A stretch of 36,913 bases of DNA from positions 1 through 36,913 of the forward strand of contig JABIBQ010000020.1 in assembly GCA_018652685.1 (NCBI GenBank), read 5' to 3'. Both the position numbers and the translations under genes were made by a program. The DNA is from Candidatus Bathyarchaeota archaeon. Lineage in GTDB: Archaea; Thermoproteota; Bathyarchaeia; TCS64. Each line of letters opens with the position of its first letter. Position 1 is the first letter of the stretch. The notes below the pieces were generated by a model. The model ran no database searches and was not told the DNA's origin. It worked only from the letters and a program-made list of their open reading frames with translations. Positions 13,496 through 21,585 of this stretch are shown in pieces.

Positions 13496-15109
13496 GTGAT
13501 ATTAATGAACAAGAAATCAAACACTTTGACGCGACTCGTATCGGTCGTAATACTCATAGTCTCCATTATGGGAACGATTACCCCCGTTACCGCCACGGGT
13601 GAAGAATTCATTTATGGAACGTTCTTCGGGGGATCACGCAAGGACCAGATACGCGACATAGCCCTCGACTCCAACGGAAACATCATCATAGTAGGCGGGA
13701 CATTCTCCGAGGATCTCCCGGTCTTGGACGCGGCCCAGGAGGTATACGGGGGAGGCGCGTTCCCCTCAACGGTTGAATGGTTCAGACTAATGGGGGAAGG
13801 ATTCGTCGCCAAGTTCTCGCCTGAGTATGAATTACTATGGGCTACGTACCTCGGTGGTTCTGAGATGGACCTCGCGTATCACGTAGTGGTTGATTCAGGA
13901 GACAACATCCTTGTTTTCGGTCAGACAATATCCAGCGATTTCCCTGTCACCGATGTGTCAACATCAACGGACCGCGAGAACGGAGACAGTTTCATTGTTC
14001 GTTACACACCAGACGGGGAGATACTTGAATCCACGTTCTACGAGGTCGATGAGGTATCATTAATCCAGTACGTTGAACAGGACCCTGATGGGAACCTTGT
14101 GCTTGTTGGACAAACCAATTCTGAGGATTACGTTTGCACAGACGACGCACTCCAGGCGAGCCTTGGAGGGGAAGACGACGGTTTCATCAGGGTCCTCACC
14201 GAGGACTTTGGGACGTTAATCTACTCTACATATCTTGGTGGTAGTGGATCTGACTTTATCAACAAAGCATTTGTTGACTCCAGCGGGGGAATCTACGTAA
14301 GCGGCTCGACCCAGAGCGATGATTTTCCCGTATCAGAGGACGCGTTCAGGCCGGAATACATAGGAGACCCGTTTGACGACTTCGTTGCCAAATTGAGCTC
14401 TGGAGGGGAATACGAGTATGGAACCTATTTTGGTGGAACGGAATTAGACGACATCTTCGGGTTAACCGCTGACGCGGAGGGAAACGCAATTGCAGTAGGC
14501 AGAACATGGTCACCCGACTTTATAGTAACTGAAGATGCCCTTCAACCAGAGTATAGCGGCGTTGAGGTTGATGGTTTCATTACCCAGTTTGACGCCCAAG
14601 GTACAAGGCTGTTATACTCAACTTTCTACGGACTAGACGACTGGGACTCCCTTCTTCAGATAGACCTTGACGAGGAAGGCAGAATGTTTATCACCGGGTT
14701 CGTAGGCTCCGGTGGATTCGAGACCGTCAACCCATTCCAAGCCGACCACTTGGGGTGGACGGACATGTATGTGATGATAATGGACCAGGATATCGAGCTA
14801 GCATCCTATCTTGGAGGGTACGGCTCTGACCACCCGTTCGCCCAGGTGCTGAGCGACGGAAAAATCTTCATCGTCGGTTCCTCACAATCACCCACGTTCC
14901 CCGTCTCCGAGAGCGCGTATCAGGAAGGATTCCACGGAGAGGAGGACGGCATAATCTGGGTGCTAGACTACGAGGGATACTTGGGCGGGGACCACGCGGT
15001 TGAGTCACCGGGGCCGGATTACAGGCCATACATCTCGTACGGGGTGGTCCTTGGGGCAATCGCTGCTTGGTTAATATTGACGAGGAGCTCGTTCAGTAAC
15101 CACAACTGA
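13496..15109 (+). CDS. Cell-surface SBBP-repeat beta-propeller protein
   Basis: A 537-residue exported protein. An N-terminal hydrophobic signal segment (about residues 14-30, ending near TPVTATG) is followed by seven repeats of about 60-65 residues of the SBBP type: YxTYxGGSxxDxxxxIAxDxxGN, then VxGxTxSxDFPVTxxA. Then comes a short linker and a C-terminal membrane anchor (SYGVVLGAIAAWLILTRSSF). Seven repeats fit a seven-bladed beta-propeller displayed on the cell surface. Repeats 3 and 6 have lost the GGS turn. The first codon is GTG directly after the previous stop; an in-frame ATG at 13505 (MNKKSN) is the more natural signal-peptide start. Ligand unknown. The acetyltransferase upstream could modify its glycans, but nothing in the sequence shows this. 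Confidence 0.88.
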   Translation: MILMNKKSNTLTRLVSVVILIVSIMGTITPVTATGEEFIYGTFFGGSRKDQIRDIALDSNGNIIIVGGTFSEDLPVLDAAQEVYGGGAFPSTVEWFRLMGEGFVAKFSPEYELLWATYLGGSEMDLAYHVVVDSGDNILVFGQTISSDFPVTDVSTSTDRENGDSFIVRYTPDGEILESTFYEVDEVSLIQYVEQDPDGNLVLVGQTNSEDYVCTDDALQASLGGEDDGFIRVLTEDFGTLIYSTYLGGSGSDFINKAFVDSSGGIYVSGSTQSDDFPVSEDAFRPEYIGDPFDDFVAKLSSGGEYEYGTYFGGTELDDIFGLTADAEGNAIAVGRTWSPDFIVTEDALQPEYSGVEVDGFITQFDAQGTRLLYSTFYGLDDWDSLLQIDLDEEGRMFITGFVGSGGFETVNPFQADHLGWTDMYVMIMDQDIELASYLGGYGSDHPFAQVLSDGKIFIVGSSQSPTFPVSESAYQEGFHGEEDGIIWVLDYEGYLGGDHAVESPGPDYRPYISYGVVLGAIAAWLILTRSSFSNHN

Positions 15110-15762: not shown

Positions 15763-17214
15763 CTAGACTGGATATTCCAGCTTTCTCAGGGCCTCACACA
15801 TCACGTCGTAGTACTTGCCCTGCTCCACACCTAGCTCTTTGAGGACGTCAAGTATCTCGCTCCTCACCATGATTTCCTTCGTCACGAGGTGTTTCTCGGT
15901 GAACTCCACAACCTGGTCGTGGTACTCGGTGATTATCTCCCTGGCGATCTCAAGGGCTGCGTCCTTGATCTTCTTGACCTCCTCCTCGATCTCAACTCTG
16001 TTCTCGTCGCTGAACAGCCCCTTTGAAAGGTATGTCTCGTCCTCACCCATACTCATCTTCACCAGCGGGTTCTTCAGCGCGTATAGACTCAGTGCGCTCT
16101 TTGATGAGCCGGTGAGGTCGCCCATGCGTCCCTCCTCCTTGCTCTTCTCAAGCTCCTGGTAGACAGCAGTACTGCCCATGGCAGTGATGACGTTTGCGAA
16201 ATGATATTTGGCAGATGAAGGTGGTATGGAATCGGAGTGCTTGTGAAAGTTCCTCCCGTACGAGCCGTCCGCAGACGGGGTGATTGTGACAAGAATGGGC
16301 TCAAGGCCCACCGCGTACGCTGGCAGTGTGTGTCCGCCGAATTCGTGATAAGCCACGTTAGTCTTCTTCTCTGGGGTCAACGATGTATCTGACGGCGGCC
16401 CCTGAAGGTACCGGATGATCTGGCGCACCAGCATCTTGTTAGTGAGCTCTCCGTTGATGTCGGCCTTGTAGCTAGCTTTTGAGACGATCTCCTCGATCTT
16501 CCCCGAGACTACACCCTCCATTAGGAATGACAGGGTCTCTACATCGATTGTACTTGGGTCATGCTCGAACTTTTCTAGGTAGTAGTTAAACAGCGCCTTC
16601 CTACTCTCGTCCTCTGGGCTGGGGAACCGCAGGTGCCGTGAGAACCGACGCGCGATCTGCCTGTCGATGTGCCAGATCACAGTGGCCGATGTGACTATTA
16701 TGTGGACGGGATTGGCGTAGTACTGAAGGCCGTCCAGCTGTCTCCTGAACTCGGACAGCATTGGCCGGGTCTGCTGATGATTGTTATCGTACTCTCCTCC
16801 CCTGTGCCTTGAGCCAAGCAGTTGCCTGGCGTCGTCGTACACAATGAGCAACGGCTTCTTCTCGGCCATCTTCCTGCACGAGTCGAAGAACTCTCGAATG
16901 TCTTTGGGGTCGATGACCGCCTTCTCGTGCATCAGGCTGCCGTCCACCGGGTAGTAGCCCTTCTTCTTGGCCTCGTTGACGACACAATGCAGGGCATGGG
17001 TCTTGCCTGCCCCGGTCCTGCCCAGGAATAGGGAGCCGCTCTCTGAGGATATCAGCATGCGCTTGATCTCGTCCTTGCCCTCCGCCGTTATTTTTGACAG
17101 GTATTCAAGGTACTCTACGATTTCGCGCAGCTCGTCTTGTATTAGTGGGAAACCGATGAAATCATCGGAAAGGGATATGTCCCTTGGGTTGAAAGGCTTA
17201 AGCTTCACAGCCAC
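15763..17214 (-). CDS. Soluble AAA+ ATPase fused to FtsH-like M41 peptidase domain, HEFGGH zinc motif
   Basis: A 483-residue protein joining an AAA+ domain to a peptidase M41 domain, the order found in FtsH but without FtsH's N-terminal membrane helices. Walker A is GRTGAGKT (65-72) and Walker B is LLIVYDD (122-128, Asp-Asp instead of Asp-Glu). A second-region-of-homology segment holds Arg residues at 185-193, and FtsH's usual aromatic pore loop is not recognisable. From about residue 286 it follows M41: VAYHEFGGH, ITPSADGSYGRNF, and Asp366 at the third-ligand position. The zinc motif has one extra residue: HEFGGH (290-295, bases 16330-16347) instead of HExxH. DPP III (family M49) uses the similar HELLGH, so activity is possible. 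It starts with GTG; a TATA-like element is at 17229. Confidence 0.85.
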   Translation of the reverse strand: MAVKLKPFNPRDISLSDDFIGFPLIQDELREIVEYLEYLSKITAEGKDEIKRMLISSESGSLFLGRTGAGKTHALHCVVNEAKKKGYYPVDGSLMHEKAVIDPKDIREFFDSCRKMAEKKPLLIVYDDARQLLGSRHRGGEYDNNHQQTRPMLSEFRRQLDGLQYYANPVHIIVTSATVIWHIDRQIARRFSRHLRFPSPEDESRKALFNYYLEKFEHDPSTIDVETLSFLMEGVVSGKIEEIVSKASYKADINGELTNKMLVRQIIRYLQGPPSDTSLTPEKKTNVAYHEFGGHTLPAYAVGLEPILVTITPSADGSYGRNFHKHSDSIPPSSAKYHFANVITAMGSTAVYQELEKSKEEGRMGDLTGSSKSALSLYALKNPLVKMSMGEDETYLSKGLFSDENRVEIEEEVKKIKDAALEIAREIITEYHDQVVEFTEKHLVTKEIMVRSEILDVLKELGVEQGKYYDVMCEALRKLEYPV

Positions 17215-17302: not shown

Positions 17303-18739
17303 TCATCCTTGAAGAGACTTGGCCATCTCCCTTGCCTTCTCTAGAGGTGGCTCAACGGAGGGGTCTTTATCGTACTCTCTTCCCATCAACCGTGTCTCAA
17401 GCTCCTTCTTAGCTTCAACAACGCGGTCGGGGTTCGTGAACAGGTCTAATGCAGCACCAGCCATCGTCTTAGCGGCGAATATCAGGCTCTTGTGACCGAT
17501 GCCCGTGCCGCTGCACGCGACAAACTGCCAGCTATGCCCGGGTGCCCCATTGACGTTGCAGGCTGTCCCGAACTCCATGGTAGGTGTGATCCAACTCACG
17601 TCGCTGACGTCGGTACTGCCCGCGCTGTGAGTGCCATCGTCCCACGGGTCAAGGATATCAGTGATGATATCCTCATCAACGTATTTCTGCCAGTTTGGAA
17701 CCTTGTTTTTCCTCAAACTAGAGATCCGGTTTTCCTTGGGGAAACTAGTTGCGATCTCAGCAGCGAACTCCAACTCATCCTTAGTGTACACAGGCGCTCC
17801 AACCTTCCGCATATTCGAGGTCACTATCTCGCTAAGCACCTTGCTAGGTATTTTATGGACCCCACCCGCGGACATCTCCGCTACTAGCTTAGTGTCCGTC
17901 ATCAATGCCGCGCCTTCTGCGATCTTCATGACTCTCTGTTTGATAGGCTCCAGCATGTCCCGCTCAGGTGCCCTGATATAGTACCAGCTATTGGCATAGT
18001 CAGGGACCACGTTTGGCTGCCCTCCACCAGATTCAATGACATAGTGAATTCTAGCCTCGGGTATTATGTGCTCCCTGAGGTAGTTGACCCCAACGTTCAT
18101 CAACTCAACGGCGTCTAATGCGCTTCTCCCAGCCTCTGGGTTCCCCGCCGCATGGCTTGACTGCCCATGATAGTGGAACCTGGCACCGCTGATTGTGTTG
18201 CTGCTCTTCAGACTGGCAATGTTCATGCTGCTTGGGTGGTGGCTTAACGCGGCGTCAACATCGTCGAAAAGCCCCTTGTGTACAAAGTACCTTTTACCGC
18301 TGTAGTTTTCCTCTGCTGGAGTACCGTAGAACCTGATGGTCCCCTCGATGCCCTCTTGCTCCATGGCATAACCTACAGCGATAGCCGCGGCCAATGCCGT
18401 GGTCCCGTGGATGTTATGGCCACATCCATGGCCCATACCTCCCGCGACCATCGGGTCCTTCCTTGGCACGGGATTGTTGCTGATCTTGGGTAGAGCGTCG
18501 TATTCTCCCATAGTCGCTATGATTGGCTTGCCTTTCCCCTTCTCTGCTAGAATAGCGGTGGGCATTCCCGCCACCCCGTGCTGTACCTTGAACCCGTGTT
18601 TCTTCAAGGTCTCAGCGAGCAGTGCGCTTGATTTGTCCTCGCAGAGACCGTACTCCGCGAACCCCCATATCTTGTCGCTGATCGAGATCAACTGATCTCG
18701 GTTGTCCTCAATCCACTTCCACGATATTTCCTTGACCAT
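17303..18739 (-). CDS. M20 family metallo-amidohydrolase, AbgB-like
   Basis: A 478-residue M20D peptidase-family protein. The catalytic domain contains GHGCGHNIHGTTA (Cys/His metal site), YGTPAEEN with the catalytic Glu pair and LSHHPSS. The inserted dimerisation/lid domain carries a conserved His in YHGQSSHAAGNP, and a C-terminal catalytic half follows with a late GHSWQF His. The wording is closest to AbgB-type aminobenzoyl-glutamate hydrolases, which cut amide bonds of N-acylated amino acids in the cytosol. The metal-site Asp that follows GCGH in many members is Asn here, as in AbgB relatives. ATG 18739 lies about 30 bases from a GTTAAATAG TATA-like box. It is divergent from the creatininase-family gene; both hydrolyse C-N bonds, so a shared role is plausible. 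Confidence 0.88.
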   Translation of the reverse strand: MVKEISWKWIEDNRDQLISISDKIWGFAEYGLCEDKSSALLAETLKKHGFKVQHGVAGMPTAILAEKGKGKPIIATMGEYDALPKISNNPVPRKDPMVAGGMGHGCGHNIHGTTALAAAIAVGYAMEQEGIEGTIRFYGTPAEENYSGKRYFVHKGLFDDVDAALSHHPSSMNIASLKSSNTISGARFHYHGQSSHAAGNPEAGRSALDAVELMNVGVNYLREHIIPEARIHYVIESGGGQPNVVPDYANSWYYIRAPERDMLEPIKQRVMKIAEGAALMTDTKLVAEMSAGGVHKIPSKVLSEIVTSNMRKVGAPVYTKDELEFAAEIATSFPKENRISSLRKNKVPNWQKYVDEDIITDILDPWDDGTHSAGSTDVSDVSWITPTMEFGTACNVNGAPGHSWQFVACSGTGIGHKSLIFAAKTMAGAALDLFTNPDRVVEAKKELETRLMGREYDKDPSVEPPLEKAREMAKSLQG

Positions 18740-18822
18740 TGTTACTCAGTATGAAAACTAATGTTTTTACTATTTAACACACATGCGCAAAGTCAATATC
18801 AGGAAAAACCATTGATAGCCAC

Positions 18823-19566
18823 ATGAGCGAAGAAGTATTGTACGAGAGGCTAACCCCGGAGGTACTTGAAGACAGAAGAAAAAGGACTCCAATCGCGTAC
18901 CTGCCGCTGGGCACACTTGAGTGGCACGGACCCCACCTCCCCCTGGGAAGCGACCACCTCCAGAGCCAGGGATTCTTTATCAAGCTGGCCCAGAGGGTTG
19001 GTGGAGTCGTTCTTCCGCCCCTGTTCCTGGGCCCCGATATCAGAGAGGATATCGATGACAACGAGTACTATGGAATGGATACCCTGCAGAAGGCTTCTCC
19101 CCAGCCGATGCGGCTCAAGGGAAGCGCCTACTGGGTCCCTGACAAACTCTTCGCCAAGATCATCGACGCGGTGCTCAAGCAGGTGCGCAGGGCAGGGTTC
19201 AGGATCGTGGTCGCCCACGGCCACGGACCGTCCAACGATTACATCATTGACAACAAACCGGAGCTTGAGCAGAGACACGGGTTAATTATCTTCACTGTCT
19301 GGCGGGGCAAGGAGGAAAGGGACCCGCCGACAGAATTTCAGCACGACCACGCCGCGGCAAACGAGACATCCATCATGATGAGCCTCCATCCGTCACTGGT
19401 CCATATGGATCAGCTTCCGGAGAACATGCAGGAGAAACCCCTTGCCTTGATAGGAGATGATCCTCGGACACACGCATCAACGGAACATGGGGATAATATC
19501 GTCAATATCCACCTTGACAGGATGGAATCAATACTGCAAGAGGAACTAGCCAGATTATACCCCTGA
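18823..19566 (+). CDS. Creatininase family metal-dependent hydrolase
   Basis: A 247-residue protein of the creatininase family (PF02633). YLPLGTLEWHGPHLPLGSDH supplies the Glu, His and Asp metal ligands. VAHGHGPSND occupies the usual NGHGGN loop, and HDHAAANETSIM supplies the late His/Glu. The family includes creatinine amidohydrolase, the archaeal FAPy deformylase ArfB of riboflavin and F420 synthesis and mycofactocin MftE, all hydrolysing a C-N bond in the cytosol with two metals. This sequence is too general to choose among them; no flavin or mycofactocin genes are beside it. The ATG start has a TATA-like CAATATCAG about 26 bases upstream, so the mRNA may be leaderless. Confidence 0.85.
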   Translation: MSEEVLYERLTPEVLEDRRKRTPIAYLPLGTLEWHGPHLPLGSDHLQSQGFFIKLAQRVGGVVLPPLFLGPDIREDIDDNEYYGMDTLQKASPQPMRLKGSAYWVPDKLFAKIIDAVLKQVRRAGFRIVVAHGHGPSNDYIIDNKPELEQRHGLIIFTVWRGKEERDPPTEFQHDHAAANETSIMMSLHPSLVHMDQLPENMQEKPLALIGDDPRTHASTEHGDNIVNIHLDRMESILQEELARLYP

Positions 19567-19606
19567 ATAGAAGATATTACGGACTAAATCTTTGCACCAA
19601 CAGATC

Positions 19607-21160
19607 TTATTCCTTGGCGTAAACTATCTCGCCACCAATTATCGTCATCTCAACCCGGATATCTTTGATTTGTTCGGGTTCTACAGTCAACGGGTTTTCG
19701 GTCAGGATTGCGAGGTCAGCCAGCTTACCTACTTCCAGCGTGCCTTTGTGGTCCTCCTCGAAACTGGCATACGCACCGTTCACCGTGTGAATCTTGAGGG
19801 ATTCGAGAACTGAAACACTTTCATCTTTATCTATAATTGAGCCATTCTTTGTCCTCCGGATAACTGCGAAAGCCATCCCCAGCAAAGGGGTCGAGTAAGC
19901 CAGCGGTGGTCTAGCCCTCCTTTTTATCGGTACGGTAGGCGAGTCGGAGCCACCGGATACGTTGATTCCCGCCGAGATCATCGAGTTGTAGGCGACCTTC
20001 ATGACATCCTGCGGGTACTTTGGTTCAAGTTTGTACACAATCTCTGGTTGGGCGGCCACAACGAGTCCGATTTTTCTCGCCCGTTCAAGGATATCTTCAT
20101 CGATATTGTCGGCATGTTCTATCCTGTGCCGGTGGTTGTGTCTAGGTGTATCTTCCAGTACCTCCTCCAGGGCTTCAATGGCGTTTCGCGTCTCGTTTAT
20201 GTTCGTCGCGTGTATCGAGAGTTGGAGCCCGGCTTGATGTGACTCCTTCACCCTCGCCCTAAACTCACGTACGGACATCCTGTCATCGGCGAACAACTTG
20301 ACCATGCCCAACTTGAGCAGGTCTTGAATTGGCTCGGTTCCGATCCCTTCTTGGATATAGCGTTCGAGGGGGATGTCCCTGTTCCTGTCGCACCCGAGGT
20401 AGAGCCTGAGCGGGGTCCTGCCACCTCGCACAGCGTTCATGAAGGCGCGGAGGGCGTTTGGTGGGAGCTGGGGGTCATGGATTGAAGTGATCCCGGACTC
20501 CAGGACCTTCTTACTTGCTATCTCGATGGAGTGTTCCAGTTCGGATTCCGGTAGATCAGGGTCAACAGGGTCGAGGGTGGGTACGTTGGCCACTTGATAA
20601 AGTAGTTTCTCGTCTTCTACCCTGATTACCCCGGTGGGTTCGCCCGAGTTGCGAAAAGTATCCATTGTCACGCCCTTTCTAGGGTGCATGTCCACTTTCG
20701 CCATGGATTTGCTGTTTACTATGCACGTCAGGTAGTCCAGGCTCTCCAGGTACACGGGGTTTTCAGGTGAAACCGAGTCCAGTTCCATGATATCAGGCAG
20801 TTCATCCATATGGGTTTCATCGAACCCGTACCCCTTGACCCAGTTTCCCGAGGGAGTATCACGGATTGCTGCTTCCAACCGGGATAGCAGTGACTCCTTG
20901 GTGGTTATTCCACACAGGTCAATGACCTGCATGTCCAAACCCAGGCTGATGAGGTGGATGTGGCTGTCAATGAAGCCCGGGACAGCGGTTTTTCCATGGA
21001 GATCGATGACTTTTGTTTCCTCACCCTGATGTGGTTTGATATCATCGTTTGACCCGACCTGGATAATCTTCCCGTCCTTGACGGCCAAGGCGGAGGCGGT
21101 TGGCGCTTTTTCGTTTAAAGTTAAGAAATTCCCGTTGTATAATATCATGTCAGCCTGCAT
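19607..21160 (-). CDS. YtcJ-like amidohydrolase, divergent paralogue
   Basis: A 517-residue Amidohydro_3 protein, second of its kind in the window. It has the HxH site in FIDSHIHL (residues 67-69), RIEHADNID for the second His, and GGSDSPTVP with the catalytic Asp. The segment that is HAIGDRA in the paralogue at 1807 reads HATNINETR here (His about residue 317), losing the Gly-Asp pair while keeping the His ligand. This suggests a changed substrate pocket. It begins 17 bases after the stop of a VOC gene on the same strand and is probably co-transcribed with it. It is a cytosolic hydrolase; the substrate is unknown. Confidence 0.88.
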   Translation of the reverse strand: MQADMILYNGNFLTLNEKAPTASALAVKDGKIIQVGSNDDIKPHQGEETKVIDLHGKTAVPGFIDSHIHLISLGLDMQVIDLCGITTKESLLSRLEAAIRDTPSGNWVKGYGFDETHMDELPDIMELDSVSPENPVYLESLDYLTCIVNSKSMAKVDMHPRKGVTMDTFRNSGEPTGVIRVEDEKLLYQVANVPTLDPVDPDLPESELEHSIEIASKKVLESGITSIHDPQLPPNALRAFMNAVRGGRTPLRLYLGCDRNRDIPLERYIQEGIGTEPIQDLLKLGMVKLFADDRMSVREFRARVKESHQAGLQLSIHATNINETRNAIEALEEVLEDTPRHNHRHRIEHADNIDEDILERARKIGLVVAAQPEIVYKLEPKYPQDVMKVAYNSMISAGINVSGGSDSPTVPIKRRARPPLAYSTPLLGMAFAVIRRTKNGSIIDKDESVSVLESLKIHTVNGAYASFEEDHKGTLEVGKLADLAILTENPLTVEPEQIKDIRVEMTIIGGEIVYAKE

Positions 21161-21177
21161 TCTAGTTCAAACTCCGG

Positions 21178-21585
21178 TCATCGTTCTATCAAGGACCCTT
21201 CCTTGACGTATTTGTCACGTTCGTCAGGGAACGTGTTAAAGTATATTAAGTTCCCATCGGGGTCAATAATCTCGGCGCTCCACGAGCCGTCGTGTTCAAT
21301 GTGCGCCTGTTTTGAGAAGGTACGGCCCGCATCAACCCCTTCCCTGTAGATGGATTCGATGTCCCCCCCTCGAAAATTTAGGAGGTTGTTATCGATGTGC
21401 CCTTGGAAGAGGCAGAGAACCATGTTGTTGTGCTGGAGTACTGCCCAGTTGTCCTCTCGGTGGTCACCAATTATCCTGAAATTGAGTTTAAGATAGAAAT
21501 CCATTGATTGGGTGAGGTTTTCTACATCAAGACAATGGTGGTACTCGCCGAGATCCAAACCTTTCCTTTCAAATGGCACGGTCAC
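21178..21585 (-). CDS. VOC family protein
   Basis: A 135-residue vicinal oxygen chelate protein: YHHCLDVENLTQSMDFYLKLNF opens the first beta-alpha-beta unit as a CLDV-type glyoxalase-like start, and AEIIDPDGNLIYFNTF closes the second. Lengths and strand order fit a single VOC domain of bleomycin-resistance or glyoxalase-like type acting in the cytosol. The GTG at 21585 is the longest start; a GTG two codons later is possible. A TATA box lies 80 bases upstream and a 20-codon frame (21569-21631) overlaps the start out of frame. It is first gene of a likely operon with the amidohydrolase. The pairing hints that its ligand is related to that enzyme's substrate. Confidence 0.8.
   Translation of the reverse strand: MTVPFERKGLDLGEYHHCLDVENLTQSMDFYLKLNFRIIGDHREDNWAVLQHNNMVLCLFQGHIDNNLLNFRGGDIESIYREGVDAGRTFSKQAHIEHDGSWSAEIIDPDGNLIYFNTFPDERDKYVKEGSLIER

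Follow-up and report, generated by a model that had tools for sequence, protein, structure and literature searches.

We analyzed a stretch of 36,913 nucleotides of DNA (the window; contig JABIBQ010000020.1) from a Candidatus Bathyarchaeota archaeon and found a gene whose product, judged from its sequence, is a real, conserved variant of the M41 AAA+ proteases and probably works in an M41-like manner. The best reading, to which we give a probability of about 0.6, is that this protein belongs to a distinct archaeal subfamily of M41 AAA+ metalloproteases, which would work in the cytosol with a zinc site of the HExxxH type. The gene (15763..17214, minus strand, as are all features given below) is an intact open reading frame with a GTG start codon, and its homologues start at an equivalent position. 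It encodes a soluble protein of 483 aa and was the sole M41 match within its own genome in the profile search.

The protein begins directly at an AAA module and has no N-terminal substrate domain. The AAA+ module (residues ~17-262; 16429..17166) was assigned from the match to Pfam AAA (PF00004, 5.8e-13), the AlphaFold2 model and Foldseek matches to FtsH-type proteases, and the M41-type protease domain (residues 273-483; 15766..16398) from the Pfam M41 match and PDB sequence matches to FtsH. Pfam Peptidase_M41 matched the protein at 6.9e-9 and 36.3 bits, above the cut-off of 29.9. The M41 profile score is marginal in the subfamily: four members were scored, and besides the window protein one sister member exceeded the cut-off (35.4), while two stayed under it (27.0 and 20.8). 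The top PDB sequence matches were FtsH structures over the full length (E about 5e-19 to 3e-17). The NCBIfam FtsH model TIGR01241 covered residues 20-453 with 77.7 bits against a cut-off of 600, so that the protein does not qualify as an equivalog. No transmembrane helix was found in nine members, in which the maximal 19-residue hydropathy was 1.0-1.4.

The zinc motif HEFGGH (residues 290-295) is encoded at 16330..16347, where the minus-strand codons read CAC GAA TTC GGC GGA CAC. The motif takes the form HE[FSA]GGH in all nine full-length members including the window copy, which come from three Bathyarchaeia families. The motif is one residue shorter, HExGH, in each of the nine FtsH sequences used for comparison. 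The extra glycine is encoded by differing synonymous codons across the members. A sequencing error or a sporadic glycine codon found no support, and its presence in all nine members together with the differing codons leaves this explanation practically no probability. The initial annotation had read HEFGGH in place of HExxH, which the bases confirmed, and had named close relatives with HExGH as the finding that would speak against it; with HExGGH in nine of nine full-length relatives, its proposal stood. Two other points that it had made were also borne out, namely the lack of membrane helices, as seen in the hydropathy of the nine members, and an M41 domain with a third-ligand Asp, which was found in GRMxDL within a domain scoring above the Pfam cut-off.

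We compared the remaining parts of the putative active site among the members. The proposed third zinc ligand, D366 (16117..16119), lies in the sequence EEGRxxDL, which corresponds to GAxxD of FtsH, and is invariant in the nine members and four FtsH sequences. The substrate-edge strand EPILVTITP (residues 305-313; 16276..16302) is invariant at eight of its nine positions, position 312 being T or E. None of the nine members deviates at H290, E291, G293, G294, H295 or D366, or in the part EPILVTI of the edge strand. As 38% of the columns in the M41 domain are invariant, the chance that the four catalytic positions are all invariant is ~0.02, a figure that assumes independent positions and gives modest support. 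The dN/dS values of the M41 part were 0.035-0.22 in pairs with measurable dS, and those of the AAA part were in a similar range; by this sequence measure, the M41 part is under strong purifying selection. The placing of the invariant blocks in the alignment (the zinc helix, the edge strand EPILVTI and EEGRxxDL) is as expected around an M41 active site.

An AlphaFold2 model built from 11 sequences had a mean pLDDT of 81 and a pTM of 0.64. When the whole chain was compared with the PDB using Foldseek, it matched FtsH, AFG3L2 and Yme1 (E 3e-18 to 3e-14, TM up to 0.73), and the Ycf2-FtsHi complex was also high among the matches. The modeled protein is therefore similar in fold to the cytosolic part of FtsH-type AAA+-M41 proteases. 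In the model, the zinc helix spans residues 281-295, breaks at 296 and continues at 297-301. A bacterial FtsH modeled by the same procedure as a control had an unbroken helix (253-272) through HEAGH; this control was the weaker of the two models (pLDDT 76), and the modeling program places no zinc. The predicted break immediately after H295 would fit a local distortion or bulge of the kind needed to accommodate the extra residue.

We examined the AAA+ module in an alignment of the nine members with four FtsH sequences. Walker A (GRTGAGKT, with the pattern GxTGxGKT; residues 65-72; 16999..17022), Walker B (LIVYDD, residues 123-128; 16831..16848) and the SRH arginines (RRFSR, residues 189-193; 16636..16650) are present, and K71, T72, D127, R189, R190 and R193 are invariant, as expected of an AAA+ ATPase. 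Positions 99-102, 128 and 178 differ from FtsH in all nine members. Where FtsH has its pore loop 1 (residues 95-102; 16909..16932), the sequence is M-[HL]-x-K-x-x-x-x; the pore-loop aromatic is absent from nine of nine members, and a variable stretch replaces FVG. The catalytic Glu of FtsH Walker B is Asp in all nine, giving D127-D128, and the sensor-1 position 178, which is N in FtsH, is T, E or A. The DD Walker B and the lack of the usual FtsH pore loop, both of which had been noticed in the window copy at the outset, are thus features of the subfamily. Judged from the alignment, these departures at three functional positions weaken the case for FtsH-style threading.

Among known systems, FtsH and the m-AAA and i-AAA proteases (MEROPS M41; TIGR01241, PF01434) are similar to the Bathyarchaeia protein over the entire cytosolic length, with AAA+ followed by M41, and share HE, the third-ligand Asp (GAxxD), the edge strand and the SRH arginines. 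In contrast to FtsH, the Bathyarchaeia protein has no transmembrane segments, has HExGGH for HExGH and a DD Walker B, lacks the pore-loop aromatic and the sensor-1 Asn, and is only 21-24% identical to the four aligned FtsH sequences. As it lacks several of the FtsH features tested, it is outside FtsH proper. The AAA module scores at least as well with archaeal CdvC/Vps4-like ATPases (NF041006, 72.6 bits), and taken alone it scored 42-60 bits against CdvC/Vps4-like proteins and 16-39 against FtsH; these ATPases, however, have no M41 domain.

Six-residue zinc motifs are found in other metallopeptidases. Dipeptidyl peptidase III (DPP III, MEROPS M49) has an HExxxH motif in which Gly precedes the second His, and HE[FSA]GGH fits its family motif HEXXGH. 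In rat DPP III, whose motif is HELLGH, H450, H455 and E508 are required for zinc and activity, and the helix turn in the motif is wider (PMC3268031). DPP III enzymes with HEISH and HEXXGH share one zinc site architecture (PMC5805324), so that the precedent drawn from this family in the initial annotation is sound. DPP III differs in that its third ligand is Glu in EECRAE and in being an exopeptidase without an ATPase, and no M49 match appeared in the listed matches to Pfam, NCBIfam and PDB sequences or in the fold matches listed; the likeness is confined to the motif. HExxxH also occurs in a tubulin metallocarboxypeptidase, TMCP1 (KIAA0895L), with demonstrated activity (PMC10499314), but this enzyme is eukaryotic, has an EEG third-ligand motif and lacks an AAA+ module.

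We searched for the gene in other genomes. It is carried by 10 of 257 Bathyarchaeia genomes, one copy being a fragment. A search of 60 related genomes found six further full-length copies and one C-terminal fragment, all of the same family, and an M41-domain alignment searched against all 257 genomes in the class added two more distant members (G579 and G491) from two other families, with 57% identity and HEFGGH. The full-length members are 57-90% identical to the window copy. The carriers are Candidatus Bathyarchaeota assemblies, including one single-contig genome (G010; CP070784, L037). In 398 Thermoproteota genomes, Pfam M41 matches occurred in three, namely the window genome, L040 and, below threshold, L041; by our reading, the L041 match sits inside a V-ATPase gene cluster. 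Pfam M41 matched none of 224 Asgard-phylum genomes, and a count over 228 genomes of that phylum also found none with the domain. The only Asgard candidate (L038:60-463), a MAG contig in which the first 82 residues are joined to unrelated sequence, was rejected as probably chimeric. No viral contig encodes the HExGGH family, and a phage or plasmid origin was rejected, as the matches examined at full length were ordinary FtsH with HExGH, none having HExxxH. One contig labelled Acinetobacter phage (L059; CAKLQH020000021.1) has adjacent ftsJ, ftsH and folP and resembles a bacterial chromosome.

According to a review, FtsH is absent in archaea, whose only ATP-dependent proteases are the proteasome and LonB (PMC4343526). 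This and our Thermoproteota and Asgard counts agree with the earlier remark that archaea generally lack FtsH. Genes of the proteasome family and a match to Lon_C are also present in the window genome. In the literature accessible to us, we found no paper on an archaeal or Bathyarchaeota FtsH and no description of the present variant. The match in L040 (L040:397-1956; G389:C4) is from another Thermoproteota family and is a distant soluble AAA+/M41 protein with 21% identity; it has lost both the zinc motif and the third ligand, making it an archaeal M41 pseudoprotease, and among the 81 genomes in its class only one has it at full length.

From the sequences and the known enzymes compared above, an active cytosolic zinc protease is more likely than a pseudoprotease. 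H290, H295 and D366 would together hold one zinc ion, with the zinc helix bulging by one residue at Gly-Gly as in the HEXXGH motif of DPP III, and E291 would activate water. K71 and T72 would bind ATP, and R189, R190 and R193 would come from the neighboring subunit. With no pore-loop aromatic, no sensor-1 Asn and no Walker B Glu, FtsH-style vigorous threading is not expected; in its place, ATP binding may build and gate the ring, which would admit substrates that are probably unfolded or specific soluble proteins or peptides.

In a variant of this explanation, the protein is a zinc peptidase whose AAA+ module is only an ATP-binding platform for assembly, that is, an oligomeric peptidase. The changes of the pore loop, sensor 1 and Walker B (E to D) and the lack of an N-terminal substrate domain speak for it, as does the role of the FVG phenylalanine, missing here, as the residue with which FtsH grips its substrate (PMC9020784). 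However, Walker A and the SRH arginines are invariant in the nine members, so that the use of nucleotide across subunits seems to be kept. Moreover, a DD Walker B is known in active STAND-type NTPases. We regard the variant as possible, with odds clearly below even.

Somewhat less probable still is a pseudoprotease, in which the second His no longer faces the metal because of the added residue and the protein acts as an ATP-dependent chaperone, scaffold or regulator. One residue added to a regular helix shifts the second His by ~100 degrees, the AAA+ motor is altered, and the loss of the zinc motif and third ligand in L040 indicates that inactivation occurs in such proteins. Chloroplast FtsHi proteins resemble FtsH in their AAA+/M41 layout but have an altered zinc motif; although HEXXH is missing, these M41 pseudoproteases are retained and important in plants (PMC8197885, PMC9020784). 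The Bathyarchaeia protein, in contrast to FtsHi, keeps all metal-site residues; H290, E291, H295 and D366 are invariant in nine members at 57-90% identity, whereas L040 lost its metal residues. The Bathyarchaeia members are also under strong purifying selection. This conservation could serve metal binding without proteolysis, but a pseudo-site has no obvious reason to retain the general-base Glu. As this Glu and the Asp ligand are kept, the simplest reading would be a working zinc site with a Gly-Gly bulge.

FtsH is typical of bacteria, and several of the assemblies are contaminated by some percent, so we also considered recent horizontal transfer of a bacterial FtsH or bacterial contamination. 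The nine related Bathyarchaeia copies, however, come from separate assemblies including the single-contig genome, and their identity to FtsH is low. A tree of the AAA domain united the nine in a single supported group (98/97) on a long stem outside bacterial FtsH, and we consider transfer or contamination very improbable. Together with the glycine kept in all nine members, this group supports the distinct M41 subfamily that had been proposed. In AU tests of where the group attaches, p was 0.37 for CdvC-like and 0.07 for FtsH, and neither placement was decided. The group may be a deep M41 branch or may have arisen by fusion of another AAA+ module with an M41 domain.

At about even odds from the sequences, this is the first M41 lineage with an obligate HExxGH site, and a soluble archaeal AAA+ metalloprotease without the pore-loop grip. 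If so, the proteasome and LonB would not be the only kinds of ATP-linked protease in archaea, and a metalloprotease family other than M49 would have independently fixed the pentapeptide-to-hexapeptide switch known in M49. The statement that FtsH is absent in archaea, taken in its plain form, is contradicted by the conserved AAA+/M41 protein of Bathyarchaeia. HExGGH is also a natural variant in which one can examine, in a second protein family, how the zinc helix takes up one more residue and whether it then stays catalytic, and the protein bears on which AAA+ parts an M41 protease can dispense with.

Apart from those shared with a copy from the same genus (L032), the carriers have no common neighboring genes, so the gene yields no operon clue. 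A defence context was rejected, because the PADLOC matches were incomplete, for the most part weak, and fell mainly on the AAA part (e.g., IetA). The region 17303-21585 of the window contains catabolic genes that are missing beside the copies of the other carriers. An M20-family peptidase gene lies upstream on the same strand and is followed by genes for a creatininase-like amidohydrolase and a further amidohydrolase-like protein. At 13496-15109, the window encodes a protein of beta-propeller repeats (SBBP) that is probably exposed on the cell surface; its N-terminus has a signal-like segment and its C-terminus a hydrophobic one.
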